64,000 nucleotides of DNA from Fusibacillus kribbianus (GTDB lineage: Bacteria; Bacillota; Clostridia; Lachnospirales; Lachnospiraceae), in the NCBI RefSeq assembly GCF_030053595.1, contig NZ_JASGBQ010000004.1:1-64000 (forward strand), given 5' to 3'. Each line of letters begins with the position of its first letter. The first letter of the stretch is position 1. Of this stretch, positions 502-18,468 are shown one piece after another. Both the position numbers and the translations under genes were made by a program. The notes beneath the pieces are model-generated. The model was given only the letters and a program-made list of their open reading frames with translations, did no database searches and was not told where the DNA came from.

Positions 502-543
502 TGTTGAACCATCCTTTCGTTCTGTTTGCCACCTTTCCAGGAT

Positions 544-921: not shown

Positions 922-938
922 TGATTAATCCTCCTTTT

Positions 939-1952: not shown

Positions 1953-1966
1953 AAAAGCCCCTCTTT

Positions 1967-1992
1967 TATAGATATATTTAAATATATCTATA
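1967..1992. promoter_or_regulatory. 26-bp perfect palindrome upstream of the permease gene
   Basis: The two 13-nt arms (TATAGATATATTT and its complement) match without a mismatch. It sits 14 bp before the permease start and after the arsR stop. Its ATAGATAT core resembles the TATCTATG arms at the arsR promoter, so it is probably a second ArsR operator controlling the downstream part of the operon. Confidence 0.55.
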
Positions 1993-2035
1993 TTATGTTT
2001 TTGGAAAAAGTCGTGCGGAAAAGTTTTGATTTCCC

Positions 2036-2344
2036 TTACTTTTCACAACACGACTTGTTTTCCTCTTTCCACTCGACAGTCGTCAGTTCTTTTAAACAAA
2101 TCACCGCAGCCTCTGCTCCCCTGGCTGAAATCGAATAGTGCATCCATTTTCCTTCCTTGCGGCCGACCACAATGCCGGAATCACAAAGAATCTTCATATG
2201 GTGGGACAGAGTAGGCTGTGTTACATTCAATTCTTCCAGAAGTCTGCAGGCACACTTCTCTCCGCTTCGAAGCATTTTTATGATACGGATACGATTTTCA
2301 TCACAAAAGGCTTTGAAGATCAACGCTGTTTTATTTTCATCCAT
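2036..2344 (-). CDS. arsR: ArsR-family metalloid-sensing repressor
   Basis: A winged-helix repressor of 102 residues from the chosen ATG, which has GGGAGG seven bases upstream (an earlier ATG at 2359 overlaps that site). The helix-turn-helix is the stretch NVTQPTLSHHMKIL, and the CxC pair in EKCACRLL sits where ArsR proteins carry their arsenite or antimonite site. Two more cysteines close the protein (SCCEK). It is the first gene of the arsenic operon and is preceded by a consensus promoter overlapped by an inverted repeat, so it is very likely autoregulated. Confidence 0.9.
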   Translation of the reverse strand: MDENKTALIFKAFCDENRIRIIKMLRSGEKCACRLLEELNVTQPTLSHHMKILCDSGIVVGRKEGKWMHYSISARGAEAAVICLKELTTVEWKEENKSCCEK

Positions 2345-2366
2345 CTGCCCGCCTCCCATAGACGTT

Positions 2367-4735: not shown

Positions 4736-4813
4736 TCAGCTATCGAACAGGTTAAACAATACTCTGTACAAAAAAGACACTTGGATTTGTAACCGCGTGC
4801 CTTCAACTTACAT

Positions 4814-4890
4814 CCTGCAACTGGCTACCATACTGTATTTCAGGTCCTATAGCTTTGCGTCATACTCTTTCGGGTATTTTGCCCAATCTC
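4814..4890 (-). ncRNA. cyclic-di-GMP-I (GEMM-I) riboswitch aptamer
   Basis: On the minus strand the segment carries the conserved GEMM-I features in order: GGGCAAAA, a short stem closed by a CGAAAG loop (4868-4875 region), GACGCAAAGC, AGGACCTGAAA as tetraloop receptor, and a second stem closing with GGTAGCC. GCTA (upstream) pairs with GTAGC (downstream). The order and spacing match the family well. A promoter stands about 80 bp upstream. A weak stem (GGATGTAA with TTACAAATCC, around 4783-4815) followed by CTTTTTT could be the expression platform. Its target is now only the LPXTG remnant. Confidence 0.88.
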
Positions 4891-4967
4891 ATTTTTCATC
4901 TTTCATTAATACGAAATCATGGCCAGCTCACTGCAAAAAGCAGGCCATGTACAAGGTCCCATATTAT

Positions 4968-5102: not shown

Positions 5103-5118
5103 CTTGTAACCCAATCCT

Positions 5119-5755
5119 TCAAATTTCCAGCACCGACGATATCAGAAGCTTTGTATAATCATTTTCAGGATTATGAAGCACGTCGCCGCTTTTCCCTTCT
5201 TCAACGATCACGCCGTCATGCATGACCATGATCCTGTCACAAAGCCCCTGTACCAGCGCCAGATCATGGGAAATGAACAGGACAGACAGGTCCATTTCTT
5301 CTTTCAGTTCCTGTAAAAGCTCCACGATCTGAGACTGAACGCTCACGTCCAGCGCGCTGGTGGGTTCGTCCGCAAGATCAGAGATATTTCTTTTCCCCGC
5401 AGACGGCGCATTTCCTCTTCAGAAAGCTTCAAAAGCTCCCTGTCCTCATAATGGATGCTTCCACCTGTTACGCGGCCGCCTTTTCCGAGGATTCCGAGGG
5501 AGGCATAAATCGTCGTACTCTTTCCGCTGCCCGACTCGCCCACGATTCCGAGAATTTCCCCTTTATCCACCGACATGGAGCCCCCCGTAAAACGGGGGAG
5601 TCTCCGTAACAGACATCCATATTTTCGATAGTGAATAATTCCTTCATTGTTTATCAAACTTCCAAAGAATAAAGTTATTGGCATTGTCGCTGCCGAACAT
5701 GGGAGTGATACCTGTAATTCCCTTGCGGACTACATTGTATCTCTGGATATGAAAT
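5119..5755 (-). pseudogene. chimeric remnant of the ABC importer genes (SBP end, DppD start, DppF end)
   Basis: This stretch is a near-identical but rearranged copy of 8149-9995. Reading the minus strand: the last ~33 codons of the substrate-binding protein gene, the first ~90 codons of the first ATPase (Walker A GESGSGKST intact), a short ADEPTSALD Walker B piece of that same ATPase, then the last ~75 codons of the second ATPase (VSVQSQIVELL onward). One base is missing from the run near 5586 and the Walker junction shifts frame, so no full ATPase can be made. The central deletion joins the two paralogous genes within their similar Walker B/D-loop DNA. The methyltransferase that follows the intact ATPases is absent here. 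Confidence 0.9.
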
Positions 5756-6033: not shown

Positions 6034-6609
6034 ATGTATGTGAATCTGATCTTATACGATGATTTTGAGGAAATGGATGCCTTTGTACCGGTCAGCATTT
6101 TCGGATGCCTTCGGGATGAATTTTCTATCCGGTATCTGTCTATGACAGGAGATGTGGTGAATGGCAGCCAGGGGGCTAAAATATGGACAGATTATCTTAT
6201 TCCGGAGGAAATCAGTGGGATCGTGCTGATACCGGGCGGGAAAGGCGCCAGACGCCTGCTTGCCAGGGATCAGAGATTTCTGGAATGCCTGAAACGTACC
6301 ATGGAGAAAGCGGAAACCTGTCTGATGGTGGGGAACAGTTCCACACTCCTTGCACAGACGGGGCTGCTTTATCGGAGGCTGGTTGCAGAGTGCCCTCTGG
6401 ACGAAAACTGGAAACGGATGTTCACGGCAGAAGTCCGGTGGATACAAAAGGTGCCCTGGATTTCTGACGGGAAATACTACTCCTGCGCTTCCAGTGCGTC
6501 AGCGGTGAAGATGACCCTTGGGTATATCGCAGATACGCTGGATGTGGATCTGGCGGAGATGGCGGCGAAAAAGCTGGGATTTTTCTGGAATCCGGAAGAA
6601 GGAGAATAA
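6034..6609 (+). CDS. DJ-1/PfpI-family protein lacking the usual nucleophile cysteine
   Basis: A class I glutamine-amidotransferase-like protein of 191 residues. It begins MYVNLILYDDFEEMDAFVP, as DJ-1/PfpI domains do, and carries GIVLIPGGKGAR (oxyanion region) and LGYIADTLDVDLAEMAA near the C-terminus. At the nucleophile elbow, where the family has VC(T/A)G, this protein reads MVGNSSTLLAQTGLL, so the catalytic cysteine appears replaced by glycine. AGGAGG stands eight bases before the ATG; an in-frame upstream reading through the leader terminator is less likely. It is co-transcribed with the histidine-rich gene 22 bp downstream. A non-catalytic or binding role is inferred. Confidence 0.8.
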   Translation: MYVNLILYDDFEEMDAFVPVSIFGCLRDEFSIRYLSMTGDVVNGSQGAKIWTDYLIPEEISGIVLIPGGKGARRLLARDQRFLECLKRTMEKAETCLMVGNSSTLLAQTGLLYRRLVAECPLDENWKRMFTAEVRWIQKVPWISDGKYYSCASSASAVKMTLGYIADTLDVDLAEMAAKKLGFFWNPEEGE

Positions 6610-6631: not shown

Positions 6632-6955
6632 ATGCATATGGTAACAGACGAACACGGAAATGTGATCCATGGACATCATGATCACGATGGACATGGACAC
6701 ACTCATACCCACGAACACGCTCATGAACATTCTCATGGAGAAGGGGACGCTGTGGAAGAGACGAGGGCCCTGGTAGGTTATATGGCGGATCACAACAAGC
6801 ATCATGCCATGGAACTGGCGGAACTGGCCGGGAAACTGAAGGAGCTTGGAAAAAATGAGGCGGCAGAGCTTCTGGAAAAGAGTGTTGCGGAGTTTGACAA
6901 AGGGAACCGGTATTTAGAGGCAGCATTGGCAGTACTGCCAGGAAAAAAATTATAG
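6632..6955 (+). CDS. histidine-rich putative metal-binding protein
   Basis: A cytoplasmic protein of 107 residues. Residues 1-37 contain about fifteen histidines in HGH, HDHDGHGH and HTHEHAHEHSH patterns, as in nickel- or zinc-storage proteins such as Hpn and HypB extensions. Residues 40-107 are a predicted helical hairpin with a conserved-looking MADHNKHHAMELAELA start, so a folded domain follows the metal tail. AAAGGAG precedes the ATG by ten bases; a second ATG is two codons later. The pair with a DJ-1-like gene, opposite a Nik/Opp-type importer, suggests nickel, cobalt or zinc handling. Metal identity cannot be read from the sequence. Confidence 0.75.
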   Translation: MHMVTDEHGNVIHGHHDHDGHGHTHTHEHAHEHSHGEGDAVEETRALVGYMADHNKHHAMELAELAGKLKELGKNEAAELLEKSVAEFDKGNRYLEAALAVLPGKKL

Positions 6956-7264: not shown

Positions 7265-7293
7265 TCCACAAGCCTCCCCCAAGGTTATTTTTT
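7265..7293. repeat. 29-bp direct repeat, left copy
   Basis: Identical to 16246-16274 except for two adjacent bases; sequence starts TCCACAAGCCTCCCC and ends AGGTTATTTTTT. It lies 42 bp downstream of the last operon gene. Both copies have the same orientation, and short similarity (ATGCCCCGG) continues about 70 bp further in both flanks. Confidence 0.75.
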
Positions 7294-7335
7294 CAAAAAA
7301 AATACAATCTGTTTCTCCGGGGATTTTCTGCTGAA

Positions 7336-8130
7336 TTATCTTCCCTCAATCCCCATGCCCCGGATTGATTTCGGTTTTTCCGCCCGGATCATAAACATGG
7401 GAGTATTACCGTAAAGAAGGATTTCTTTCTCATCCCACATTTCTTCGATAATGCTCCTTTCAGCGCTTATATTCCAGTAACCCAATCCCTCCAGAAGCCC
7501 CATATCCCAGTCAGGGCGGCGCTTGTCCCCCAAAACATGGCTGCCTTCCATATCCTGCTTTCTTCTTTCCTTTTTATTCTTTGTCTTTTTATCAAAGGCA
7601 TCTCCATAACGCTCCACACATTCGCGGTAACGCCGCATACTGTCTTCCCGCAGGGCCTCGTCCACCTTTACCAGGTGCCAGTTTGCATCAAAAATCAAAA
7701 GGACGCCGCCGGGTTTCAATACCCTGAGCCATTCCCCGTATACTGTTTTATGCTCTCTCAGCGTATGGGTCACATTGCGGCTGACTACCAGATCAAAGGT
7801 GTTGTCAGGAAAATCCAGATGATGACAGTCCATGTTTAGGAACACAGGCTTTACTCCGAAACATTCCGCTTTCTCTATTGCTTCGCTGAGCATTGCCTCT
7901 GCTCCATCCACGCCGACGACCTCATGTCCTTCGGCGGATAAGAGAATGGAGAAAAATCCGGGCCCGCAGCCAGCGTCCAGAATTTTCAGCTGCCCTCCCG
8001 CCGGCGCATTTTTCAGGATTTTTTCCCGCCATCTGTCCGGCCGGAAGCTTTTAAGCTCCTGATTGATAATATCACTGTAATTTTCCGCTCTTTCCGACCA
8101 GCGCTCGTTAATTTCTTTTTGTGTAGCCAT
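7336..8130 (-). CDS. class I SAM-dependent methyltransferase
   Basis: A Rossmann-fold methyltransferase of 264 residues. Motif I is ILDAGCGPGFF (residues ~49-59), the acidic residue ending beta-2 is in VVGVDGAE, and motif IV/post-motif regions are FDLVVSRNV and LKPGGVLLIFDANWH. The N-terminus (WSERAENYSDIINQELKSF) and the C-terminal RPDWDMGLL region match the first half of the double methyltransferase at 13285, so the two are paralogues. GGAAGAGGAAGAG precedes the ATG. It is the last gene of the operon, 17 bp after the second ATPase, implying that its substrate is linked to what the importer carries. Substrate unknown. Confidence 0.85.
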   Translation of the reverse strand: MATQKEINERWSERAENYSDIINQELKSFRPDRWREKILKNAPAGGQLKILDAGCGPGFFSILLSAEGHEVVGVDGAEAMLSEAIEKAECFGVKPVFLNMDCHHLDFPDNTFDLVVSRNVTHTLREHKTVYGEWLRVLKPGGVLLIFDANWHLVKVDEALREDSMRRYRECVERYGDAFDKKTKNKKERRKQDMEGSHVLGDKRRPDWDMGLLEGLGYWNISAERSIIEEMWDEKEILLYGNTPMFMIRAEKPKSIRGMGIEGR

Positions 8131-8147
8131 CTCTTCCTCTTCCTTCT

Positions 8148-8903
8148 TTAAATCTCCAGCACCGACGATATCAGAAGCTTCGTATAATCATTCTGAGGAT
8201 TATGAAGCACGTCGCCGCTTTTCCCTTCTTCAACGATCACGCCGTCGTGCATGACCAGAATCCGGTCACAAAGCCCCTGTACCAGCGCCAGATCATGGGA
8301 AATGAACAGGACAGACAGGCCCATTTCTTCTTTCAGTTCCTGTAAAAGCTCCACGATCTGAGCCTGAACGCTCACGTCCAGCGCGCTGGTAATTTCATCA
8401 CAGATCAGGATCTTCGGCTGCACTGCGATGGCTCTTGCAATAGCCGCCCGTTGACATTCTCCGCCACTCATCTGATGAGGATATTTTTTTACAAATTCTC
8501 TGCCAAGCCCGGTTCTTTCCAGATACTGTACCGTCTTTTCCCGGGCCTGATCCCTGTTTCCTCCAAAATTCACCTGAATGTCGGTGATACAGCTTCCGAT
8601 GGTCCTTCTGGGGTCAAAGGAATCCCGAGGCATCTGGAAGATCATCTGTACCGTTTTATAGATCTGCCTGGAAAACGGATAGGAATATTCTTTTCCATCA
8701 TACAGAATCTGTCCTCCATCCGGTTTTATGAGGCCGGACAGAATCCGGGCAATGGTACTTTTCCCGCAGCCGCTCTCTCCGACCAGACCGAGAAATTCCC
8801 CCTCTTCCAGATAAAAGGAAACGTCATTCACTGCATGGACGATTCTTTCTGCCTTTCCCGAAAAAAAACTGATATCCAGGTTTTTTGCTTCCATCAGCCT
8901 CAC
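8148..8903 (-). CDS. ABC transporter ATPase, DppF/OppF/NikE type
   Basis: Second ATPase of an Opp/Nik-type importer. Walker A is GESGCGKST, the Q-loop lies in QMIFQMPRDSF, the signature is MSGGECQRAAIA, and Walker B is ILICDEITSALD. I chose the GTG at 8903, preceded by GGAGGAG with a seven-base gap; an ATG three codons later is also possible. The product is about 251 residues, slightly shorter than usual because it lacks the C-terminal Cys-rich tail its partner has. It lies between the first ATPase and the methyltransferase in one operon. A damaged 3' copy is at 5119. Confidence 0.88.
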   Translation of the reverse strand: MRLMEAKNLDISFFSGKAERIVHAVNDVSFYLEEGEFLGLVGESGCGKSTIARILSGLIKPDGGQILYDGKEYSYPFSRQIYKTVQMIFQMPRDSFDPRRTIGSCITDIQVNFGGNRDQAREKTVQYLERTGLGREFVKKYPHQMSGGECQRAAIARAIAVQPKILICDEITSALDVSVQAQIVELLQELKEEMGLSVLFISHDLALVQGLCDRILVMHDGVIVEEGKSGDVLHNPQNDYTKLLISSVLEI

Positions 8904-8950
8904 CGTTATACTCCTCCAGTTAAATATAATACCAAACACTTCCAAAGCAA

Positions 8951-9886
8951 TCAGACAAAAAAGCAGCGGACAAAATGCCCCGGTTCCGCTTCTTGCAGCC
9001 CCGGCATCAGTTCTTCACACTGTTCTTTTTTGCAGGAACATCCATTCCGGTAAGGACAGCCGGGCGCGCTTCTGTCGCAGGCCGCAGAGAGCACTCCCTT
9101 CGGCGCCGGTTTATCCATGGAAGGAACTGCCTGGATCAGATTCTTCGTATAGGGATGAAGGGCATTTCGGATCACCAGATCCTTTTTTCCATACTCCAGA
9201 ACCATTCCCCCATACATGACTGCCACCGTGTCTGCCATATGAGAGATAACTCCCATATTATGGGAAACAAGGAAGACCGCTGTTCCAAAATCCTCACGGA
9301 GCTTTAAAAGCTCGCCGACTACCTGCTTCTGGACCGTCACATCCAGCGCACTGGTGGGTTCGTCTGCAAACAGCAGCATGGGAGAAAGCACCATGGCCAT
9401 GGCAATGGAAACTCTCTGACACATTCCTCCGCTCATTTCAAAGGCATAACTGTTAAGGATCCGTTTTCCGTCCTTCAGATTGATCTTTTCCATGATGGCA
9501 AGCATCTGTTCCTCTGCTTCCTGAAAGGACAGTCCTCCGTGACATTTGATCAGTTCCTTTAACTGACTTCTGATTTTCCGGATCGGATGGAAGGATTCCA
9601 CCGGGTTCTGGGCGATCAGAGATATCTCTTTTCCCCGCAGACGGCGCATTTCCTCTTCGGAAAGCTTCAAAAGCTCCCTGTCCTCATAACGGATGCTTCC
9701 GCCTGTTACGCGGCCGCCTTTTCCGAGGATTCCGAGGGAGGCATAAATTGTCGTACTCTTTCCGCTACCCGACTCGCCCACGATTCCGAGAATTTCCCCT
9801 TTATCCACCGACATGGAGACCCCCCGTAAAACGGGGGAGTCTCCGTAACAGACATCCATATTTTCGATACTGAATAATTTTTTCAT
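8951..9886 (-). CDS. ABC transporter ATPase, DppD/OppD/NikD type
   Basis: First ATPase of the importer, 311 residues. Walker A GESGSGKST, signature MSGGMCQRVSIA, Walker B MLLFADEPTSALD. The C-terminal OppD tail is present with the cysteine set C-DRSAPGC-PYRNGC-SC-KKEQC typical of this family. The start ATG overlaps the stop of the substrate-binding gene by four bases (ATGA), so the two are translationally coupled. Downstream DNA and the first third of this gene recur in the remnant at 5119-5755. Confidence 0.9.
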   Translation of the reverse strand: MKKLFSIENMDVCYGDSPVLRGVSMSVDKGEILGIVGESGSGKSTTIYASLGILGKGGRVTGGSIRYEDRELLKLSEEEMRRLRGKEISLIAQNPVESFHPIRKIRSQLKELIKCHGGLSFQEAEEQMLAIMEKINLKDGKRILNSYAFEMSGGMCQRVSIAMAMVLSPMLLFADEPTSALDVTVQKQVVGELLKLREDFGTAVFLVSHNMGVISHMADTVAVMYGGMVLEYGKKDLVIRNALHPYTKNLIQAVPSMDKPAPKGVLSAACDRSAPGCPYRNGCSCKKEQCEELMPGLQEAEPGHFVRCFFV

Positions 9887-11436
9887 TGTTTATCAAACTT
9901 CCAAAAAATAAAGTTATTGGCATTGTCGCTGCCGAACATGGGAGTGATACCTGTAATTCCCTTGCGGACTACATTGTATCTCTGGATATGAAGCAGGAAC
10001 AGATGCTGATCCGCTTCATAGACCTTTTCCTGGATCTTTTTTGCCAGCTCCGCCCTCTTTGCCGTATCGGATGTTACCTTCATCTCATCCAGCATCGCGT
10101 CGACCTCCGGATCCGAGAAACCGGTAAAGTTGGAGGTTCCATCTGTATGGAATACGGGATTCAGATAATTGTAGCAGTCACCAAGGGTCAACGTGTTATA
10201 GGCATAGGTTGCAATGTTATATTCCCCTTTATTCAGATCGTCGACAATGGCATCGGAAACAACAATATCCGATTCGATTCCGATCTCCTTTAACATGGAC
10301 TGAAGCACCTCGCTTAAAACGGGAAAACTGTTCCCGGAGTAGCAGGTGATATTCAAATGAACCTTCTCGCCATCCTTCTCAATAAAACCATCATTATCGG
10401 TATCTTCATAGCCGGCATCGGCAAGGATCTTCTTTGCCTGCTCCAGATTGTAACCCACCTGTCCCAGGCTGCTGTCATAAAATTCAGAGAAATCCGGGAA
10501 AATGGAAGTGGTGACGGTTCCCCGTCCGCCGTATACGCCCTGAAGGATCGCGTCGCGGTCAAAGGCACAGGTCAATGCCTCACGGACTGCCGGATCTTCC
10601 GTAAAGGTATAGCCGGGGTTCAGATACAGATAATACACACGTCCGGGATTATAGGTCAGCACCTCATAATCGGGATTATTTTCAAACAGAGGCAGATCGG
10701 AGGTCTGGATCCCCGCCCAGTCCAGTTCCCCGGACTGAAGCGCCAGGGTCTGGGCTGCCGCATCCAGATTTGCCTTCGTATGGATTTTTGCCGCCACAGG
10801 AGTTCCCTGCCAGTAATTGTCATTTCTTACAAGCTCGCAGTTGCCATCTCCATCTACGCTTTTCAGGATATAAGGGCCTGTGCCGATCACGCCGCCGCTG
10901 TAATCGTCGGAGGCCTCCGTATCAAAAATGATCGCGTTCACTTCTGTCAGAATTCTCGGCATGATTGCAACGATCCCGTTTGTCTTTAAGGTCAGGATCT
11001 GGCCGTCTGCCTCGATGGAAGCAATATCTGCCATGGTGCCGAGACGTGTATTGTTTGCAAAAATATATTCCAGCGCACTCTTGCAGGCTGCTGCATCCAG
11101 CGCTTTGCCGTTGCTGAAGGTCACGCCGTCGCGGATCGTAATGACCCAGGTCAGATCGTCAGTCTGTTCATATCCGGTCGCCAGATGAGGCTCCACCGCT
11201 TTTGTGTCATCGTTTAAGACAAACAGGGTTTCTGCGATTCCCGTGGTCACAGATTTCTGGCTCAGATAATCCACAGCCGGATCAAAGGAAAAACCGGAAG
11301 TCGTATTGCTGTTGCCAACACTCATGGTAAATTCAATATCCTTCCCGCCCTCTTCTTTTTTGCTTCCACAGCCCACCAAGGCACTGCACAGCATTGCCAT
11401 GCAAAGAAGGACTGCAAGCATTTTTTTTCTTTTCAT
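9883..11436 (-). CDS. ABC transporter substrate-binding lipoprotein, family 5 (Opp/Nik type)
   Basis: The extracytoplasmic binding protein of the importer, 517 residues, the usual length. A signal peptide ends in the lipobox-like LVGC (about residue 23). Family-5 features follow: AETLFVLNDDTKAVEPHLATGYEQ, WVITIRDGVTFSNGK, GTGPYILKS and DNYWQGTPVAAKI. These proteins bind peptides, nickel complexes or opines, and I cannot assign the ligand. Start has AAAGGAG. It lies 37 bp after the second permease gene; its last ~33 codons are duplicated near 5650-5755. Confidence 0.9.
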   Translation of the reverse strand: MKRKKMLAVLLCMAMLCSALVGCGSKKEEGGKDIEFTMSVGNSNTTSGFSFDPAVDYLSQKSVTTGIAETLFVLNDDTKAVEPHLATGYEQTDDLTWVITIRDGVTFSNGKALDAAACKSALEYIFANNTRLGTMADIASIEADGQILTLKTNGIVAIMPRILTEVNAIIFDTEASDDYSGGVIGTGPYILKSVDGDGNCELVRNDNYWQGTPVAAKIHTKANLDAAAQTLALQSGELDWAGIQTSDLPLFENNPDYEVLTYNPGRVYYLYLNPGYTFTEDPAVREALTCAFDRDAILQGVYGGRGTVTTSIFPDFSEFYDSSLGQVGYNLEQAKKILADAGYEDTDNDGFIEKDGEKVHLNITCYSGNSFPVLSEVLQSMLKEIGIESDIVVSDAIVDDLNKGEYNIATYAYNTLTLGDCYNYLNPVFHTDGTSNFTGFSDPEVDAMLDEMKVTSDTAKRAELAKKIQEKVYEADQHLFLLHIQRYNVVRKGITGITPMFGSDNANNFIFWKFDKQ

Positions 11437-11473
11437 TTTACGTTTCTCCTTTCCAGAGTCTTTATATCATATT

Positions 11474-12313
11474 TTATTGCTCTACATTTTTTTTCAGATT
11501 CAGAAGCTCATTGATACTGTCGCCGAACATTCCCATGATCATAACCACGATCAAAATGGCGAGACCCGGGAAAATAACGGTCCAGGGCGCCGTCTGAAGC
11601 GTCGCCTTTCCGTCATTCAGCATATTTCCCCATTCAGGGAATGGCGGAGCGGTTCCCAGTCCCAGAAAGGACAGGCCGGAAAACCCCAGGATCGCGCTTC
11701 CCACGTGCATACTGGCCGACACCACCAGAGGTGTCAGGCTATTGGGAAGAATCGTTTTAAACAGAATCGCGGTCCGGCTCATTCCCGATATCCTTGCGGC
11801 GCTTACAAAGGTCTTTTCCTTTAATGTCAGCACCTGGCTTCTTGCAAGTCTGGCATAGCCGGTCCATCCAACGGCTGTCATGGCAATAATACAGTTCAAA
11901 AGCCCGCTTCCCAGCATGGCCGCCACGGAGATGGTAAAGACCATGGATGGGAATGCCTGTACCGCATCCACAAAACGCATGACTACCGTATCGAAAGCGC
12001 CTCCGATATATCCGCAGAGGCAGCCGATGGCAGTCCCGATTACAAAGGTGATCGCTACCACCGCACAGGCGGCAAAAATGGATCTGGATGCGCCCTTCAC
12101 CAGACGACAGAAAATACACCTGCCGATATAATCGGTTCCCATGATATATTCCTTGCTGGGAGCCTTCGTCACCTGCAAAAGATTGACTTCCAGCGGATCA
12201 TGCCGGATAAACAGAGGAGCCGCCAGTGCAAACACGGCCAGAAGTCCCACGACCGCCAGCCAAAACAGAAATCTGGCCTTCGGCGTTCTAAAGAATCCTC
12301 TTCTTTTTGGCAT
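11474..12313 (-). CDS. ABC transporter permease, DppC/NikC type
   Basis: Inner-membrane permease of about 279 residues from the ATG at 12313, which has GGGGTGGA seven bases upstream. It has the N-terminal extension typical of DppC (HDPLEVNLL, MGTDYIGRCIFCRLV), about six membrane segments, and the coupling motif in the cytoplasmic loop (SAARISGMSRTAILFKTILPN). It overlaps the stop of the DppB-type gene by 26 bp and would pair with it to form the channel. Residues 60-68 lack the usual LGRDxxSRL exact form but keep GTDYIGR. Confidence 0.9.
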   Translation of the reverse strand: MPKRRGFFRTPKARFLFWLAVVGLLAVFALAAPLFIRHDPLEVNLLQVTKAPSKEYIMGTDYIGRCIFCRLVKGASRSIFAACAVVAITFVIGTAIGCLCGYIGGAFDTVVMRFVDAVQAFPSMVFTISVAAMLGSGLLNCIIAMTAVGWTGYARLARSQVLTLKEKTFVSAARISGMSRTAILFKTILPNSLTPLVVSASMHVGSAILGFSGLSFLGLGTAPPFPEWGNMLNDGKATLQTAPWTVIFPGLAILIVVMIMGMFGDSINELLNLKKNVEQ

Positions 12314-13271
12314 AACGCCGTCCACCCCCATTCTCCGCAATCAGCCTCTTTTTCACCCGCGGGTCCGCATAGGCATGTAAAATATCCACTGCCAGATTTA
12401 CAAGCACATAAATCCCTGCCATCAACAGAACAAACCCCTGCATTAAAGGATAATCCCGGTTGGTGATGGAGTTTACGGCCAGACGTCCCAGCCCCTGGTA
12501 GGTACATACGATTTCAATGATCGCAGTCCCTCCAAGCAAATGTCCCACATTCATACCGATAATCGTAAACAGGGACGGAAGCACGCTCTTTAAAGCTCCG
12601 TGATACAGGATCATCCGTTCCCGGATTCCCCTTGCTTTTGCCATCCGTATATAATTTTCTTCCAGTTCCTGGATAATAGCCGCACGGATCTGGCGGATAT
12701 AAGCAGGCGCCATGGTAAGAGTCAACGTCAGTGCCGGCATCCAGATTCCCTTTGCGGATCCGCTGCTTACCGTAGGGAGCCACCGGAGCTTTACTCCCAG
12801 GAAATAGATCAGCATCAGCGCCGCAAAAAAACCGGGAAGAGATCCGAAAAAGAAATTGATCACCCGGACGATGTTATCAAGGATCCCGTTTTCCCGTACT
12901 GCGCAGATAATTCCTAACGGAATAGAAAGAAGCAGGGTCATCACCGTCGCCAGCAGAGTCAGTCGGATTGTATTGGGAAAATATGCCGCAATTTCATGGG
13001 CGACCGCGTTTCCGGTGTAAATAGAAGTTCCAAGATCGCCATGGAACAGATTTACCAGCCAACGGCCGTATTGTACCCACATGGAATCATTAAGACCCAG
13101 TTCCTGTCTCAGATTGGCAACCGCCTCCGCGCTGGGAGCGTCCCCGCCCTGGGACAGATAGATCGTGGCCGGATCCCCCGGCGACAGATACATCAGAAAA
13201 AAGGCGATAAACGAAATCATAAGCATGACCGGTATCAGCCACAGCAGCCTTTTTGCAATATAACGTTTCAT
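12288..13271 (-). CDS. ABC transporter permease, DppB/NikB type
   Basis: Inner-membrane permease of about 327 residues starting MKRYIAKRLLWLIPVMLMISF. It has the family loop (MYLSPGDPATIYL, LGLNDSMWVQYGRWL) between the first two membrane segments and the coupling motif MAKARGIRERMILYHGALKSVLP. ATG at 13271 chosen over an earlier TTG because GAGTGA is well placed. It lies just after the double methyltransferase gene (14 bp) and overlaps the DppC-type gene. Confidence 0.9.
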   Translation of the reverse strand: MKRYIAKRLLWLIPVMLMISFIAFFLMYLSPGDPATIYLSQGGDAPSAEAVANLRQELGLNDSMWVQYGRWLVNLFHGDLGTSIYTGNAVAHEIAAYFPNTIRLTLLATVMTLLLSIPLGIICAVRENGILDNIVRVINFFFGSLPGFFAALMLIYFLGVKLRWLPTVSSGSAKGIWMPALTLTLTMAPAYIRQIRAAIIQELEENYIRMAKARGIRERMILYHGALKSVLPSLFTIIGMNVGHLLGGTAIIEIVCTYQGLGRLAVNSITNRDYPLMQGFVLLMAGIYVLVNLAVDILHAYADPRVKKRLIAENGGGRRYAKKKRIL

Positions 13272-13284
13272 AACTGACAATCAC

Positions 13285-14772
13285 TCATTTCACAGGTTTG
13301 CCGTTTCTGGCGGCAATAAAAAAGTTGGTATAGCTTCCTTCTATGATTCCGTATTTCAAAAGCACCTGAGGTCTTTCTATCTCCTCTGCAAAAATATCAA
13401 ATCCAAGCTTCGGAAGTACCCGTTCGTCCCATTCTCCCGGCCGGTTCATTTTTGACAGGGGCAGCTCCAGCGCCGTATTATCGCACAGGCTGTAGTCTAC
13501 AGGATCTGCATGTCCGTTTCCATGGGCACTCCCGGCCAGTTCTTCCAGCTTCTTTCGGTATCCTTCCGCTTCCTTGTCAAACAGATACAGATAATGGTTT
13601 CCATCCCAGTAAGCCAGAATCCCACCCGGCTTTAAGACCCGCTGCCACTGTAAAAGTACCGCCTCCGGATCAGGAAGGGCCCACAAAAGATTTCTGGAAA
13701 TCACCACGTCAAAGGTATTTTCCTCAAAGGGCAGCTCCCCCGCCGGCGTACAGACAAAGTCCACGGACAGTCCCAGTGCCTGTGTATTTTCTCTGGCCTT
13801 TTCGATCATATTGGAACAGAGATCGATTCCTGTCACCTCATGACCAAGAAGCGCCATGGCTGCAGCCACGACACCTGTTCCGGTCCCGGCATCCAGCACC
13901 TTATGGGTGCCCTCCGGCAGATATCGCCCCGCCTGTTCTCCCAGCTCCTTAAGGATCGATCCGTTTCTTCCGAATCCAAAGCTCCTGGCCCGTTCCTGCC
14001 AGTAGGTCTTCATATTCTGCTCTGCCTGACATTTTTCCGGCTTTACTGCACAGATCTCAAAAAGAGGCGATTCCCCGTAGAGTTCCTTTTCCCACTGTTC
14101 GTAAACCTCTTTTCCGACATCTTCATGAACAGTCACCTCCATACCGAGCCGGTCCCCAAGCACCTTCACATCCCAGTCCGGCCGGATGATTCTGGTGAGC
14201 GGTGCCGACGCAAAATACGCCAGATCACCGCCGGAAACGACCTCTCTCGTACCATACTTTTCCAGATGGCGCCGCTCCCTTTCCCGGACCCGCTTCATCC
14301 GCTCTGGATCATAAAAATGCAGATGCCAGTTGGCGTCATAGATTAACAGCATTCCCTGCGGCTTTAATATCCGTTTTAATTCCGTATAAACCATCTCCGG
14401 ATGCTCCAGCGTCCAGGTTACGTTTCTTGTAACAATAACGTCAAAGGTATCGTCTGCAAACTCCAGATTTCCGATATCCATTTTCAGGAAATCCGGCGAA
14501 ACTCCCAGCCGCCCGGCATTTTCTGCCGCATGGCCGAGCATTCCCTCCGAGCTGTCAATGGCTGTCACATGATGGCCTTCCTCCGACAGAATGCAGGCAA
14601 AAAATCCGGGGCCGGTTCCCAGATCCAGGATCTCAAGTCCGGTGCGCCCCTTAAAATGGCTGCAGATCTGTTTTTTCCAGGCGTCCTTCCGAAAGGACGA
14701 AAGCTCCTTTGTGATATAGCTGTTGTAGCTGTCCCCATTTGCCCAGCGTTTTTCCCGTTCTTCTTTCTTCAT
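13285..14772 (-). CDS. fused double SAM-dependent methyltransferase
   Basis: Two class I methyltransferase domains in one chain of 495 residues. Domain 1 (about 1-245) has ILDLGTGPGFF as motif I, VTAIDSSE, FDVIVTRNVTWTL and LKPQGMLLIYDANWH; domain 2 (about 255-490) has VLDAGTGTGVVAAA, VTGIDLCSNM, FDVVISRNLLWAL and LKPGGILAYWDGNHY. Both keep the SAM-binding glycines and acidic residue, so both may be active. Domain 1 is the closer paralogue of the single methyltransferase at 7336. The ATG overlaps the MATE gene stop (ATGA). Two methylations, or methylation plus a binding domain, on one compound are inferred; the substrate is unknown. Confidence 0.85.
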   Translation of the reverse strand: MKKEEREKRWANGDSYNSYITKELSSFRKDAWKKQICSHFKGRTGLEILDLGTGPGFFACILSEEGHHVTAIDSSEGMLGHAAENAGRLGVSPDFLKMDIGNLEFADDTFDVIVTRNVTWTLEHPEMVYTELKRILKPQGMLLIYDANWHLHFYDPERMKRVRERERRHLEKYGTREVVSGGDLAYFASAPLTRIIRPDWDVKVLGDRLGMEVTVHEDVGKEVYEQWEKELYGESPLFEICAVKPEKCQAEQNMKTYWQERARSFGFGRNGSILKELGEQAGRYLPEGTHKVLDAGTGTGVVAAAMALLGHEVTGIDLCSNMIEKARENTQALGLSVDFVCTPAGELPFEENTFDVVISRNLLWALPDPEAVLLQWQRVLKPGGILAYWDGNHYLYLFDKEAEGYRKKLEELAGSAHGNGHADPVDYSLCDNTALELPLSKMNRPGEWDERVLPKLGFDIFAEEIERPQVLLKYGIIEGSYTNFFIAARNGKPVK

Positions 14773-16121
14773 CTTTCCTGTTTCTCCTCTTTTCTCAGTT
14801 TCCTATGGAATTTCATATAGTATACGGTCATACAGACTGCTGTCAGCGCCCAGGTGATCGGATAAGTAACGGCTACTCCTCGTACATTCCTCACCCGGGG
14901 TGCAATGAGAAACAAAAGGCAGGTCCGGATCATGCAGATGTTGACCATAATAATATACATGGGCTGTTTCACCTTCCCGGCTCCTCGCAGGCTGTCTCCC
15001 AGTATCTGCAGAATGGAATAAATAAAATAAAAAGGAAAGGTAATTCCGATGATCCGGCAGCCGGTTTCAATGACCGACGCTTCTTTATTGAAAATACGGA
15101 ACAGCTGCGGACCAAACAAGAGTGCCAATACGCTGGTCACGGCAGCCAGAGCCATACTCATCGCCAGGCAGATCCACGTTCCCTCTCGCATTCTTCTGTA
15201 ATTTTTTGCCCCCATATTCTGGCCGGAAAAAGCCATGATGGCCTGTCCGAAGGCCACGATGGGCAGATAGATGATCAGTTCCACCTTGAAATAAGCCGTG
15301 AAAGCGGCAATTGCATCTTCCCCGAAGGAATTGATATGATACTGGGCCATCACATTGGACAGGGTAATGACAAGAGATTGGGTACCAGCGGGAATACCGA
15401 TCCGGATAACTTCTTTTAAAACAGGCCTGTCAAAGGCAACTTTTCGAAGCTTCAGGGAATAGGCCGGATCCAGTCTCATCAAATGATAAAGCGTAAAACC
15501 GGCGGCCACGGTCTGAGAAACAACCGTCGCCCAGGCAACGCCATCGACCCCGTTTTCAAACAGCCGGATAAACAGATAATCCATGATCACGTTCGCCAGT
15601 CCGCCTGCGGCCTGGGCATACAAAGGCGATCTGGAATCTCCCAGTGCCCGCAGCACACCGGAGCCAAGATTGTAAAGGAACATGGAAATCAGAGAAAGAA
15701 AATAGATTCTCAGATAGCTGACCGCACTGACCTTAAGCTCTGCCGGTGTATTTACCAGCCGCAGATATACCGGAGCAAAAAAGTACCCGATCACAAGAAG
15801 CAGGATTCCGCCTGCAATGCTTAAGGCTGCCGTATTATGTACGGCCCTGCTTAATTTTTCTTTTTCTTTTGCTCCGAAAATATGGGAGATCACCACACCG
15901 GAGCCCACACTCATTCCACCGAAAAATCCCACCAGGCAGGTGATCAGAAGACTGCTGGCCCCGATGGCCGCCGACGCGGATTTATTGATCATATTTCCCA
16001 CAAAGATCAGATCCACGGTATTGTAAAGCTGCTGTACCAGGCTGGAAAGAAGCAGCGGAATCGCAAAAAACAAAAGTCGTTTCCATATGGTTCCTGTTGT
16101 CAGGTCAGTCGTCCTTGCCAT
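14769..16121 (-). CDS. MATE-family multidrug/small-molecule exporter
   Basis: A 12-helix cation-coupled antiporter of 450 residues, typical length. It begins with the TTGTIWKRLLFFAIPLLLSSL helix and NTVDLIFVGN motif of MatE domain 1; domain 2 starts around residue 240 with IGIPAGTQSLVITLSN and GQNMGAKNYRRMREG. GGATGAAGGA precedes the ATG. It is the first gene of the methyltransferase/importer operon and is translationally coupled to the double methyltransferase, which suggests that it exports the methylated product. General drug export cannot be excluded. Confidence 0.88.
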   Translation of the reverse strand: MARTTDLTTGTIWKRLLFFAIPLLLSSLVQQLYNTVDLIFVGNMINKSASAAIGASSLLITCLVGFFGGMSVGSGVVISHIFGAKEKEKLSRAVHNTAALSIAGGILLLVIGYFFAPVYLRLVNTPAELKVSAVSYLRIYFLSLISMFLYNLGSGVLRALGDSRSPLYAQAAGGLANVIMDYLFIRLFENGVDGVAWATVVSQTVAAGFTLYHLMRLDPAYSLKLRKVAFDRPVLKEVIRIGIPAGTQSLVITLSNVMAQYHINSFGEDAIAAFTAYFKVELIIYLPIVAFGQAIMAFSGQNMGAKNYRRMREGTWICLAMSMALAAVTSVLALLFGPQLFRIFNKEASVIETGCRIIGITFPFYFIYSILQILGDSLRGAGKVKQPMYIIMVNICMIRTCLLFLIAPRVRNVRGVAVTYPITWALTAVCMTVYYMKFHRKLRKEEKQER

Positions 16122-16223
16122 AATTATCCTTCATCCTCCGCAGTCCTTTAATTTCCTGTCATTTTCCTGCTTTTATGCCGTCAGGAAAACCGATATCCAA
16201 GGGCCGCTTATTTCATGGCTATT

Positions 16224-16252
16224 ATCATAATAAAAGTCAAATTCCTCCACAA
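16224..16252 (-). promoter_or_regulatory. promoter of the MATE/methyltransferase/ABC operon
   Basis: On the minus strand TTGTGG (16247-16252) and TATGAT (16224-16229) are 17 bp apart. The -35 box falls inside the 29-bp direct repeat 16246-16274, directly next to its CCTC-AGGG-GAGG inverted motif, so the repeat may hold an operator. Confidence 0.55.
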
Positions 16253-16274
16253 GCCTCCCCTGAGGTTATTTTTT
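16246..16274. repeat. 29-bp direct repeat, right copy
   Basis: Matches 7265-7293 at 27 of 29 positions in the same orientation, 8,981 bp apart. Together the two copies bracket the operon exactly. The right copy includes the operon's -35 box. Confidence 0.75.
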
Positions 16275-16468: not shown

Positions 16469-17272
16469 TCAATAAAGCTCCGGTCTTCTGTGTTTCAGAA
16501 GAGGAAGCTGTTCCCGCACCTCAGCCACCTGGGAAAGGTCCAGTTCCTCTGTAAGAATCGTTTCCTGTTCTCCTGCCTGGGAAAGGATTTCTCCCCAGGG
16601 GGAAACAATAATGGAATGTCCATAAGAAATGTAGGAAGCCGTTTCATCCGCCGCCGGTGCTGCCCCTACCATGAAGATCTGATTATCCACAGCCCGGCTC
16701 CGGAAGAGAAGCTCCCAGTGTTTAGGTCCGGTAGTCCTGTTGAAAGCCGCCGGGCAGAATACGACAAGAGCCCCCTGATCCACCATGACTCGGAAAAGCT
16801 CCGGAAAACGAATGTCATAGCAGATGCAAAGGCCCATCGGTCCAAATTCTGTGGGAAACACCGTGGCAGAATCTCCGGCTGTCAGAACAGCCGATTCTTT
16901 AAAAAACTGGCCGCCTTTGATATCAATATCAAAAAGATGAGCCTTCCGGTGTCTGGCGAGAAGCCCGCCATCTCTTCCGAACAAAAAGGAGGTATTATAA
17001 ATTCTCCCTTCCTTATCGCACTCCGGAATGCTTCCTCCCACAAGATAGATCTGATGCTTCTTCGCTGCAGCCGAAAGTCTTAAAACGCTCTCCCCATCCT
17101 CCGCCTCGGCATAAAGGGGAAACCCGGAGGTCTCATAAGGACAGGCGAACATTTCCGGAAGGACTGCAAAATCTGCTCCTGCATCCGCAGCCTGCCTGAT
17201 TCCGTTCTCCGCCGCAAGCAGGCTTTCCTCCTTCGTTTTCTGTACCTTCATCTGGATCAGCGAAACCTTCAT
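16469..17272 (-). CDS. carbon-nitrogen hydrolase (nitrilase superfamily, omega-amidase-like)
   Basis: A 267-residue amidase that probably hydrolyses a small amide such as a 2-oxo-dicarboxylic acid monoamide. The catalytic triad is visible: Glu in AVLPEMF, Lys in HRKAHLFDIDI, Cys in LCICYDIRFPE. The HLFD-ID pattern and FPELFR are typical of the Nit2/omega-amidase branch. ATG at 17272 chosen, with AAAGGAG upstream; the reading frame extends further back without a ribosome site. It is monocistronic, divergent from the EIIC gene, and ends at its own terminator. Exact substrate not certain. Confidence 0.85.
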   Translation of the reverse strand: MKVSLIQMKVQKTKEESLLAAENGIRQAADAGADFAVLPEMFACPYETSGFPLYAEAEDGESVLRLSAAAKKHQIYLVGGSIPECDKEGRIYNTSFLFGRDGGLLARHRKAHLFDIDIKGGQFFKESAVLTAGDSATVFPTEFGPMGLCICYDIRFPELFRVMVDQGALVVFCPAAFNRTTGPKHWELLFRSRAVDNQIFMVGAAPAADETASYISYGHSIIVSPWGEILSQAGEQETILTEELDLSQVAEVREQLPLLKHRRPELY

Positions 17273-17297
17273 TCCCTTATGCTCCTTTATTTTCACG

Positions 17298-17326
17298 TTG
17301 AAAACCCTCACAAACAATGTTATAAT
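17298..17326 (+). promoter_or_regulatory. promoter of the PTS EIIC gene
   Basis: TTGAAA (17298-17303) and TATAAT (17321-17326), 17-bp spacing, 32 bp before the start codon. Confidence 0.75.
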
Positions 17327-17358
17327 CGCCTTGACTTTCAGACAGGAGAGATTGATTC

Positions 17359-18468
17359 ATGAAAAATCAGACGAAAAAAAACATCATTACCGTTGTCATT
17401 GATCATATTTCCAGCTGCATGGCTCCTATCATTCCCATCGTCATTGCAGGCGGGCTGGTGAAGCTCATTGTTGTCATTCTGACCATGACCGGCCTTCTTA
17501 CCGAAGGAACCACCACAGAGGCCGTCCTCTCGCTCATCGGAGACGCACCTCTTTATTTCCTTCCGTTTTTCCTGGCGTATACAGCCTCCGTTCACTTTAA
17601 GGTCAATACGATTCTGGCCATCGGCGCCGTGGGTGCCATGATGAGTCCTTCCTTTGTGGAGCTTTCAGGCTCCGCGGACCAGCTGTTCTTTGCCGGAATC
17701 CCGCTCATTAAGGCCACTTATTCCTACAGCACCATTCCCGTTATCCTGCTGATCGCGGCCATGGTATGGATTGAAAAGGCTGTACATAAAATCATGCCAA
17801 AGGCCATTGACGATATCCTGTCTCCGCTGGTGATCCTGCTGGTATCGTCTCTCGTCGGCCTCCTTGCTGTGGGCCCTCTGGGCACCCTCATCGGGAATGC
17901 TCTTTCCGGCTCCATTGCCTGGCTTCAGATCCATGCCCCCTCAGCTGCCTGGACCGTCTTTGCCGCTACGACACCGCTTCAGATCATCACCGGGACCCAT
18001 TGGGTCTTTGTGGCGACAGCTATCAACCAGCTGGGAAGCGTCGGAGTCGAAAACGGCATCATGGCCGGTTATTTTATCCTGGCCATTGCTCTGGGAGGAG
18101 TGGCCTTCGCAGCCTTCATCAAGGCAAAAACTCCGGAATTAAAGAAGCTTTCCTTAAGCTGCGGTCTTACGGTTCTCCTGGCCGGTGTCTCGGAGCCGAC
18201 TATTTTCGGAATCTGTCTCCGCTACAAAAGGCCTCTGGTCACTGCCATCCTTGGCTGTGCCATTGCAGGCCTGTATCAGGGAATCGTGACGGTAAACTGC
18301 TATGTCTATGCCTTTCCGGCGATTCCGTCCTGCCTGATGTTTGCCAATGGGTCTGAGCCCGGCAATCTGGCAAAGGCACTGATTGCCGGAGCTATTGCCT
18401 TTGCCGCTTCCTTCCTTCTGACCATGCTTTTCGGAGGACGGTTCGACGCCGATGAAAAAGCGGCTTAA
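17359..18468 (+). CDS. PTS system EIIC component (glucose/beta-glucoside family), standalone
   Basis: A membrane sugar transporter domain of 369 residues with about ten hydrophobic segments. The beta-glucoside-family EIIC features are present: PLYFLPFFLAYTASVHF near residue 70 and GVSEPTIFGI near residue 270, the conserved sugar-site loop. Most relatives carry fused EIIB and EIIA domains; here there is neither, before or after. AGGAGA precedes the ATG. Its stop codon shares bases with the stop of the convergent LUD pseudogene. It must borrow EIIB/EIIA from elsewhere, or transport without phosphorylation; both are inference. Confidence 0.82.
   Translation: MKNQTKKNIITVVIDHISSCMAPIIPIVIAGGLVKLIVVILTMTGLLTEGTTTEAVLSLIGDAPLYFLPFFLAYTASVHFKVNTILAIGAVGAMMSPSFVELSGSADQLFFAGIPLIKATYSYSTIPVILLIAAMVWIEKAVHKIMPKAIDDILSPLVILLVSSLVGLLAVGPLGTLIGNALSGSIAWLQIHAPSAAWTVFAATTPLQIITGTHWVFVATAINQLGSVGVENGIMAGYFILAIALGGVAFAAFIKAKTPELKKLSLSCGLTVLLAGVSEPTIFGICLRYKRPLVTAILGCAIAGLYQGIVTVNCYVYAFPAIPSCLMFANGSEPGNLAKALIAGAIAFAASFLLTMLFGGRFDADEKAA

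Follow-up and report, generated by a model that had tools for sequence, protein, structure and literature searches.

Methyltransferases beside an Opp/Nik-type importer in Fusibacillus kribbianus: a candidate operon for nickel- or cobalt-chelate acquisition

What do three methyltransferase domains do in one run with a MATE-family exporter and an Opp/Nik-type ABC importer? The question is posed by an operon in a 64,000-nucleotide stretch of Fusibacillus kribbianus DNA (the window; contig NZ_JASGBQ010000004.1, positions 1 to 64,000). The first-pass annotation read it as a system in which the cell methylates a compound, exports it, and recovers it, possibly bound to a metal. We assign a probability of about 0.6 to the reading that the operon acquires chelated nickel (possibly nickel/cobalt) for a CODH/ACS organism and that its methyltransferases act on the ligand rather than on the metal or a cofactor. 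To our knowledge, nickel supply for CODH/ACS and for the nickel-pincer cofactor is poorly mapped in gut acetogens and anaerobes. The operon offers a widespread nickel-uptake candidate with testable chemistry, the SAM-dependent change of a small chelator.

An eight-gene operon and its neighbours

The operon comprises eight genes, all on the minus strand (16121-7336). The annotation spoke of seven genes but listed eight, and all those named were confirmed. Pfam and NCBIfam matches upheld its MATE, methyltransferase, and importer families.

14769..16121, minus strand: 450-aa exporter of the MATE family, opening the run (TIGR00797, PF01554)
13285..14772, minus strand: fused double class I SAM methyltransferase (DMT), 495 aa, two PF08241 stretches; domain 1 at about residues 1-249 and domain 2 at about 249-495 by pairwise alignment, with a separate HMM for each
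12288..13271, minus strand: permease 1 (PERM1), NikB/OppB type (PF00528; best NCBIfam model Opp2B)
11474..12313, minus strand: permease 2 (PERM2), NikC/OppC type (PF00528; best NCBIfam model Opp2C)
9883..11436, minus strand: family-5 substrate-binding protein (SBP), 517 aa (PF00496, 246.6 bits)
8951..9886, minus strand: ABC ATPase 1 (ATP1), OppD/NikD type (PF00005, PF08352)
8148..8945, minus strand: ABC ATPase 2 (ATP2), OppF/NikE type (PF00005)
7336..8130, minus strand: single-domain methyltransferase MT1, 264 aa (PF08241)
6632..6955, plus strand: His-rich protein, 107 aa, convergent with the operon
6034..6609, plus strand: DJ-1/PfpI-family protein, directly upstream of the His-rich gene (PF01965, 58.4 bits)
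5117..5753, minus strand: decayed, internally deleted second copy of the ATP2, ATP1, and SBP ends (blastn)

The called ORFs of PERM1, PERM2, and the DJ-1/PfpI gene open at 13280, 12340, and 5896. On our reading, the likelier permease starts are the ATGs at 13271 and 12313; the DJ-1/PfpI start listed above and the lipoprotein-type N-terminus of SBP are also our readings. The two four-base ATGA overlaps noted earlier are exact, at 14769-14772 (MATE/DMT) and 9883-9886 (SBP/ATP1). With the called starts, PERM2 begins within the end of PERM1, and the gaps are 4 bases (DMT-PERM1), 37 (PERM2-SBP), 5 (ATP1-ATP2), and 17 (ATP2-MT1). The decayed copy, absent from the first-pass annotation, is 95.5% (5117-5361) and 97.1% (5376-5753) identical to the operon by blastn.

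A family-5 SBP, two BPD_transp_1 permeases, and two ATPases together constitute an Opp/Nik-type ABC importer. Both permeases fall short of their best NCBIfam models (PERM1 342.8 bits against a cut-off of 350 for Opp2B, PERM2 287.1 against 300 for Opp2C), and the oligo_HPY domain, at 48.2 bits in ATP1, drops to 22.2 in ATP2, under the cut-off of 27.1. The exporter passes TIGR00797 comfortably (238.7 bits, cut-off 147.4).

MT1 had been called a paralogue of the first DMT domain, which is borne out by 41% identity, compared with 28% between the DMT halves, and by a tree of 157 domains that places the two in a clade of 19 (support 0.94) without domain 2. The narrower clade of eight that holds MT1 also has members from the lar loci L083 and L092 and from the NikA locus L035. 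The AlphaFold2 model of MT1 has a pLDDT of 91.7. Fold and sequence searches with the methyltransferases returned generic small-molecule methyltransferases only, with the SpnF cyclase among the best folds; because these best folds are generic, the substrate cannot be named. MT1 exceeded the curated cut-off of no NCBIfam methyltransferase family among the 25 of 32 listed, and among 25 of 60 listed for DMT only UbiG was reached (105.8 against 102.95 bits, as a two-domain sum).

A binding protein close to nickel proteins, linked to methyltransferases

Family-5 importers mostly import peptides, and the operon could encode an ordinary peptide importer with the methyltransferases and a drug exporter as chance neighbours. 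Two observations are in keeping with this: the methyltransferases match no specific family, and the fold search separates nickel and peptide binders poorly. As the annotation had proposed, the structure of SBP was predicted. Foldseek ranked 3t66 first, followed by 4xkr, which is S. aureus NikA with Ni-(L-His)(2-methyl-thiazolidine dicarboxylate). The uncharacterised B. anthracis protein 5u4o came fourth and the peptide-binding AppA (1xoc) sixth, both with TM-scores similar to those of the nickel proteins. By sequence, the best PDB matches are again 3t66 (191.6 bits) and S. aureus NikA (134.5 bits), with 5u4o at 118.2 and AppA at 114.4 bits.

Identity to the solved nickel proteins (4xkr, 3t66) is only 26-29%, and SBP reaches no NCBIfam nickel or opine model (151.8 bits against a cut-off of 393 for nickel_nikA TIGR02294; 283.6 against 600 for NF045468). 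A relative, L035, encodes a binding protein that passes TIGR02294 (481.4 against 393 bits) together with MATE (52%) and MT1 (53%) homologues. Its 'RPFR' and 'WG.PYDPH' stretches align with those of E. coli NikA, whereas in the 'PSHA' stretch the His fails to align; we take these three stretches to be the ligand-residue regions of the E. coli protein. The earlier likening of the importer to metal-chelate importers agrees with both the sequence matches and the fold ranking, and, as judged from sequence, metal-chelate import is very probably its function.

Gene order was compared in other genomes, the check that the annotation had put first. Relatives came from a contig scan with one peptide pattern, and 80 of 294 were kept, so the spread of the family is at least that given here. 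Of 118 loci examined, four (L045, L080, L116, L150) had matched methyltransferase sequence in the searches but were dropped for having no ORF-called methyltransferase domain above 100 bits. The remaining 114 include three duplicates (L096, L124, L132), whose removal leaves 111 distinct loci; counts out of 114 retain them. Gene calls outside the window are uncurated longest-ORF calls.

An importer lies within 10 kb of the methyltransferase at 84 of the 111 distinct loci (87/114 with duplicates), in several phyla and in organisms including Citrobacter, Gilliamella, and Methanosarcina. At 71 of the 111 the two form an unbroken same-strand run. The other 27 have no importer within 10 kb, and in seven of them the methyltransferase is within 3 kb of a fetched end. 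Isolates that carry both include Acetobacterium tundrae (L089), Blautia sp. An249 (L097), Lacrimispora amygdalina (L072), and Propionispira raffinosivorans (L104). A 3.9-kb piece of the locus in the Citrobacter relative found no match when searched against E. coli genomes.

Linkage also tracks the closeness of the binding protein. Of the 31 homologues scoring at least 190 bits, the window included, 22 have a methyltransferase within 10 kb, compared with 8 of 14 at 150-190 bits and 0 of 28 below 150 bits. Independent occurrence of the parts, which the annotation had named as evidence against a common system, was therefore found in part: of the 31 close importer homologues, nine lack a methyltransferase inside the 10-kb range, although six of the nine lie in genomes that encode one elsewhere. 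Three of the nine loci are whole short contigs (L185, 7.1 kb; L189, 8.6 kb; L190, 3.7 kb), so a methyltransferase may lie beyond their ends. In L186 and L192, importer and MATE sit apart from the methyltransferases of the same genome. At 16 of the 114 methyltransferase loci, genes of the lar, CbiM, or CsoR type lie no more than 10 kb away. Given this linkage and the sequence closeness to nickel proteins, an ordinary peptide importer is improbable.

Importer and methyltransferases thus belong together, as the annotation held; its third partner, MATE, joins them less often (9/114 against 87/114 for the importer). MATE proteins commonly export drugs, and self-protection would assign the methyltransferases to inactivating a toxic compound and MATE to exporting the product, with the importer coincidental. 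The rarity of MATE and the metal-related neighbours make this highly improbable.

Nickel or cobalt, and the fate of the ligand

The metal is probably nickel and/or cobalt. The nickel side is represented by lar genes: L083 carries lar-type genes, methyltransferase, binding protein, permeases, and ATPases all in one direction, the lar trio is near the methyltransferase in L066, L092, and L113, and larBC-type genes adjoin two of the eight members of the MT1 clade (L083, L092). LarC in L113 and L083 was confirmed by PF01969; the proteins named LarE there have no Pfam match and were named by reading and by position beside LarB/LarC. The F. kribbianus genome encodes CODH, ACS, and larC/larB, plus a gene read as larE on weak PP-loop matches.

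Co-occurrence was counted in 200 genomes of 199 genera, this one included, ignoring relatedness. LarC is present in 30 of 31 genomes with the methyltransferase and in 87 of 169 without it (p 5e-7, uncorrected for kinship), and CODH exceeds its cut-off in 20 of 31 and 20 of 169, respectively (p 2e-9, likewise uncorrected). The flagellin control was not flat and ran in the opposite direction (11/31 vs 98/169, p 0.03).

The same system might instead carry cobalt, feeding the B12 synthesis that CODH/ACS organisms also need. CbiG, of the B12 pathway, is found in all 31 methyltransferase-bearing genomes and in 92 of the 169 others, and F. kribbianus itself has CbiG and two CbiM genes. In L046 a cobalamin riboswitch precedes a same-direction run of CbiK, two methyltransferases, importer, MATE, CbiM, CbiQ, and an ATPase, and in L061 a hemC-cbiK fusion directly follows the importer genes. 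Against cobalt stand the lar genes within the MT1 clade and the window itself, where an Rfam scan found no cobalamin riboswitch over its gathering score, the sole element above threshold being a c-di-GMP-I riboswitch. LarC enrichment persists among CbiG-positive genomes (30/31 vs 52/92), but the converse also holds among LarC-positive ones (CbiG in 30/30 vs 52/87).

The His-rich neighbour also counts against cobalt. It was located opposite the operon, as reported, and belongs to a family whose 24 places, the window copy counted, include 20 with a CODH gene no farther than 5 kb away. That copy adjoins the importer instead of CODH, and a paralogue in the same genome adjoins cooC-cooS. Comparison with the PDB and Pfam gave nothing convincing and no Pfam family over its cut-off. 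Gene association supports its assignment as a metal protein; of the metal sink postulated earlier, this association stands, while the holding of metal is only proposed. DJ-1/PfpI homologues follow the importer genes in L054 and stand beside a methyltransferase pair in L088, and both loci carry a CbiM homologue. A cobalt system is possible but doubtful, and nickel is the likely metal in this genome.

One methyltransferase family accompanies importers whether the context is nickel (lar) or cobalt (B12). Its members are therefore inferred to modify neither the metal nor a cofactor; their likely substrate is the ligand, a small organic molecule to which the metal is bound. In the acquisition operon favoured here, the methyltransferases would tailor a simple chelator in the cell, for example an amino-acid derivative, and MATE would export it. 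The binding protein would then capture the metal complex, the importer would bring it back, and the His-rich protein would hold nickel for CODH/ACS and the Lar system.

This methylate-export-recover cycle, as first annotated, is plausible, although just 14 of 114 loci have a linked MATE or ABC half-exporter and the methyltransferases could equally act on an imported ligand. The exporter count covers MATE (above 60 bits to that of the window) and ABC half-exporters within 6 kb, and it is a lower bound because other exporter families, such as the MFS protein near the methyltransferase in L113, were uncounted. Apart from the methyltransferases, no gene of the run looks biosynthetic. The opine dehydrogenase CntM (PF10100) was over its cut-off in 0 of 200 genomes, this one included; the single sub-threshold match was in genome G184 (18.8 bits), with none in F. 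kribbianus. Opine-type synthesis was accordingly rejected. No nicotianamine-synthase-like CntL appeared among the Pfam matches of ten window proteins.

A ready-made chelate might otherwise be scavenged and unloaded, with the methyltransferases, and in relatives a fused deacylase, methylating or cleaving its donor groups to free the metal and MATE expelling the spent ligand. The methyltransferases keep to the importer and rarely to a MATE or ABC half-exporter, opine dehydrogenase is missing over cut-off, and an AstE/AspA-type deacylase is fused between the two methyltransferases in L052 and present at 23 of 114 loci, all of which suit unloading. Methylation is not known to us as a means of metal release. 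Moreover, the exporter count is a minimum, and PMC7438024, in the part consulted, interprets methyltransferases encoded beside opine zincophore genes as tailoring enzymes. Unloading is conceivable but on the unlikely side, and making and recovering the ligand, rather than unloading it, has slightly better than even odds.

Should the ligand be made by the bacterium, it would represent a new metallophore class without opine enzymes; should it be scavenged, the unloading of a chelate by methylation or deacylation would be new. Speculatively, paired SAM-dependent enzymes of a methyltransferase-like family, fused around a deacylase in some lineages, could be the sole dedicated synthesis enzymes of a new class of nickel/cobalt metallophores. 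The pair would assemble a chelator out of a common metabolite for release by MATE or ABC exporters and recovery through Nik/Opp importers. Acetogens, methanogens, and other gut anaerobes would supply their nickel enzymes in this way.

Comparison with known systems

The operon is a variant of metal-chelate uptake that is real, with related sets in many other anaerobes, and apparently undescribed. Among the literature matches listed, judged by titles and abstract openings, none described methyltransferases with nickel importers outside opine clusters. We know of no methyltransferase in the staphylococcal NikA system and of neither a methyltransferase nor a MATE in the E. coli nik operon. The transporter architecture of E. 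coli NikABCDE is that of the window, and relative L035 passes the nickel_nikA cut-off, whereas the window SBP stays far below it.

The closest solved relatives of SBP, by sequence and fold rank, are S. aureus NikA (Opp5; 4xkr) and the B. halodurans nickel-binding protein (3t66). S. aureus NikA recognises Ni-His-thiazolidine, according to the portion of PMC12086673 consulted. Its family-5 ABC importer takes up nickel in chelated form, as is probable here. Unlike these proteins, the window importer is encoded in the same run as a MATE exporter and three methyltransferase domains.

In uniting synthesis or modification genes, an exporter, and an Opp-type importer, the operon resembles the opine metallophore (staphylopine/pseudopaline, Cnt) systems. 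Opine-type clusters also have extra methyltransferases nearby and, in fusobacteria, a MatE exporter, as outlined in the same part of PMC7438024. The window differs from Cnt in the result for opine dehydrogenase and in matching the Cnt NCBIfam models far under cut-off (CntA 114.5 vs 800, CntC 199.9 vs 440; for ATP1, CntF 244.3 vs 385 and CntD 242.1 vs 380).

The His-rich protein recalls CooJ, a small His-rich nickel protein encoded with the R. rubrum CODH genes (PMC6006190, in the part consulted). Its family is likewise small, His-rich, and CODH-linked, a likeness of traits. The His stretch is C-terminal in CooJ but near the N-terminus in the window protein, and CooJ is encoded within the CODH operon, whereas the window copy stands beside a candidate nickel-chelate importer.

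The operon and its surroundings

The window contains a run of eight minus-strand genes and a remnant of a second copy of part of it:

16121 to 7336, minus strand: MATE exporter, fused double methyltransferase (DMT), two permeases, family-5 binding protein (SBP), two ABC ATPases (ATP1 and ATP2), and single methyltransferase (MT1)
5117-5753: decayed duplicate of the SBP/ATP1/ATP2 part with internal deletions, 95-97% identical to the intact operon

The first-pass annotation described this run as a candidate seven-gene export-modify-import system. All of the members it listed are present on the minus strand, but its list, like the run itself, comprises eight genes. Because the run contains two ATGA overlaps and mostly short intergenic gaps, the eight genes likely form one transcription unit. 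A His-rich 107-residue protein and a DJ-1 family gene are encoded downstream of the operon, tail to tail with it, and stand between the intact operon and the decayed copy. Since the decayed copy is still nearly identical to the operon, it probably arose by a recent tandem duplication and was later lost. A c-di-GMP-I riboswitch (4813-4893, minus strand; 59.3 bits, Rfam) lies just past it. Further along, positions 121-2359 (minus strand) read by eye as an arsenic-type set of arsenate-reductase-like, thioredoxin-like, permease, and ArsR-like regulator genes.

Conservation of the methyltransferase-importer pairing

Of 200 genomes from the same family, 31 carry DMT homologues (E <= 1e-20). Neighbourhoods were fetched for 38 loci from these 31 genomes and for 80 loci from named genomes (80 of the 294 relatives listed). 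ORF calls contain a methyltransferase domain above 100 bits at 114 of the 118 loci, and removal of three duplicates leaves 111. An importer lies within 10 kb of the methyltransferase at 84 of the 111 loci, at 71 of them in an unbroken same-strand run. The other 27 have no importer in that range, although in 7 of them a methyltransferase lies less than 3 kb from a fetched end.

Viewed from the importer, a methyltransferase lies within 10 kb of 22/31 homologues of the window SBP scoring at least 190 bits (window included), 8/14 scoring 150-190 bits, and 0/28 scoring below 150 bits. None of the nine exceptions among the closest homologues has a linked methyltransferase in the fetched sequence, and three are short contigs. 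Six are in genomes with methyltransferases elsewhere, while three (genomes G021, G088, and G095) are in genomes without a match. At two loci, L186 and L192, a MATE homologue accompanies the importer with no methyltransferase. Independent occurrence of the components, which the first-pass annotation had set against its system, is thus seen in part. Importer, methyltransferases, and MATE exporter therefore make up a loose set rather than a fixed operon.

Many relatives pair the importer with two paralogous methyltransferases, and two or more domains occur at 49/114 loci; L125 has six domain matches around one importer. Some relatives carry the two methyltransferases as one protein with an AstE/AspA-type deacylase domain between them:

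L052, 8901-11423: methyltransferase-deacylase-methyltransferase triple fusion, 840 aa
L054, 803-3373: methyltransferase-deacylase-methyltransferase triple fusion, 856 aa

L037 encodes a deacylase-methyltransferase fusion. The deacylase domain occurs at 23/114 loci and a LysR gene at 14/114. The motifs RNxTW, FDANW, and RPxWD are common to most of the methyltransferases (alignments A1 and A5), which profiles and folds tie only to generic small-molecule methyltransferases.

Metal and ligand

Four lines point to nickel: linkage to lar (nickel-pincer cofactor) genes, a nickel-type binding protein at one related locus, the His-rich protein family, and gene co-occurrence. At L083, lar-type genes, methyltransferase, and importer all run in one direction. 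The lar trio is likewise found close to the methyltransferase at L066, L092, and L113 (a Gilliamella locus), and L105 has a LarC homologue. Pfam supports LarC and LarB in L113 and L083; LarE there is our reading. MT1 belongs to a clade of eight that includes L083, L092, and L035, although the members closest to MT1 (L038, L042, and L097) lack lar genes within the fetched stretches. At L035, MATE and MT1 homologues accompany a binding protein above the nickel_nikA cut-off.

The His-rich family occupies 24 places in 23/200 genomes, window copy counted, and a CO dehydrogenase (CODH) catalytic gene lies within 5 kb of 20 of them. In the CODH/acetyl-CoA synthase cluster of the window's own genome (L157, 5154-12801), a paralogue with 48.9% identity adjoins cooC-cooS. 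The CODH operon of R. rubrum includes the gene for CooJ, a His-rich protein that binds nickel (PMC6006190). Across the 200 genomes, LarC is found in 30/31 methyltransferase-positive vs 87/169 methyltransferase-negative genomes, and the corresponding figures for CODH above its cut-off are 20/31 and 20/169, whereas a flagellin control runs the opposite way (11/31 vs 98/169, p 0.03).

Other evidence speaks against nickel as the sole metal. CbiG, of the B12 pathway, occurs in 31/31 methyltransferase-positive vs 92/169 methyltransferase-negative genomes. Restricting the comparison to genomes with the other marker does not tell nickel and cobalt apart: among CbiG-positive genomes LarC occurs in 30/31 vs 52/92, and among LarC-positive genomes CbiG occurs in 30/30 vs 52/87. 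In L046, a cobalamin riboswitch precedes same-direction genes for CbiK, two methyltransferases, importer, MATE, CbiM, CbiQ, and an ATPase. The CbiK-like protein there (10814-12010), between riboswitch and methyltransferase pair, has by eye an apparent signal peptide at its start; L104 encodes a similar protein. L061 carries a porphobilinogen deaminase (HemC)-CbiK cobalt chelatase fusion after the set (16738-18465). An Rfam search that covered the window and 31 of the 118 loci finds cobalamin riboswitches in L104, L046, L090, and L098, directly before the set only in L046, and no NiCo riboswitch at gathering score. The methyltransferase family thus appears to be used for nickel as well as cobalt; in the window, nickel is the likelier of the two.

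The window binding protein scores under curated NCBIfam cut-offs and is therefore not classed as NikA. Its top solved relatives by sequence are nickel-binding 3t66 (191.6 bits) and S. aureus NikA (134.5 bits), followed by 5u4o (118.2 bits) and peptide-binding AppA (114.4 bits). A fold search with its model (pLDDT 88.8) places 3t66 and 4xkr at the top, the latter being the structure of S. aureus NikA bound to Ni-(L-His)(2-methyl-thiazolidine dicarboxylate). Recognition of Ni-His-thiazolidine by S. aureus NikA is also described in the literature (PMC12086673). Since 5u4o (rank 4) and AppA (rank 6) have TM-scores similar to those of the nickel proteins, the modelled fold by itself does not decide which ligand is bound.

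Fate of the ligand and relation to known systems

Since the methyltransferase family is found with importers in nickel as well as cobalt settings, the simplest reading is that these enzymes act on the ligand rather than a metal cofactor. In one version, the cell would tailor a simple chelator, the MATE protein would export it, and the importer would recover the metal complex. Alternatively, the imported ligand would be changed so that its metal is released, a version favoured by the deacylase fusions of relatives and the scarcity of linked exporters (14/114 loci, counting only MATE genes and ABC half-exporters; L113 has an MFS protein near its methyltransferase). Export and recovery is favoured by the place of MATE as first gene of the window run and by a precedent, since methyltransferases and MatE exporters have been reported near metallophore genes (PMC7438024). 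No fact is decisive, and we lean slightly toward export and recovery of a tailored chelator over metal release after import.

The window operon is not an opine system: the 200 genomes contain no opine dehydrogenase above the cut-off, and the window proteins do not reach the cut-offs of the Cnt models. Among the matches listed, from mostly open-access literature, none suggests a methyltransferase-importer association outside opine clusters; this is weak evidence, because most subscription journals lie outside the scope searched. Metal-chelate uptake is itself known, and we rate the methyltransferase-importer set as an apparently new addition to it.
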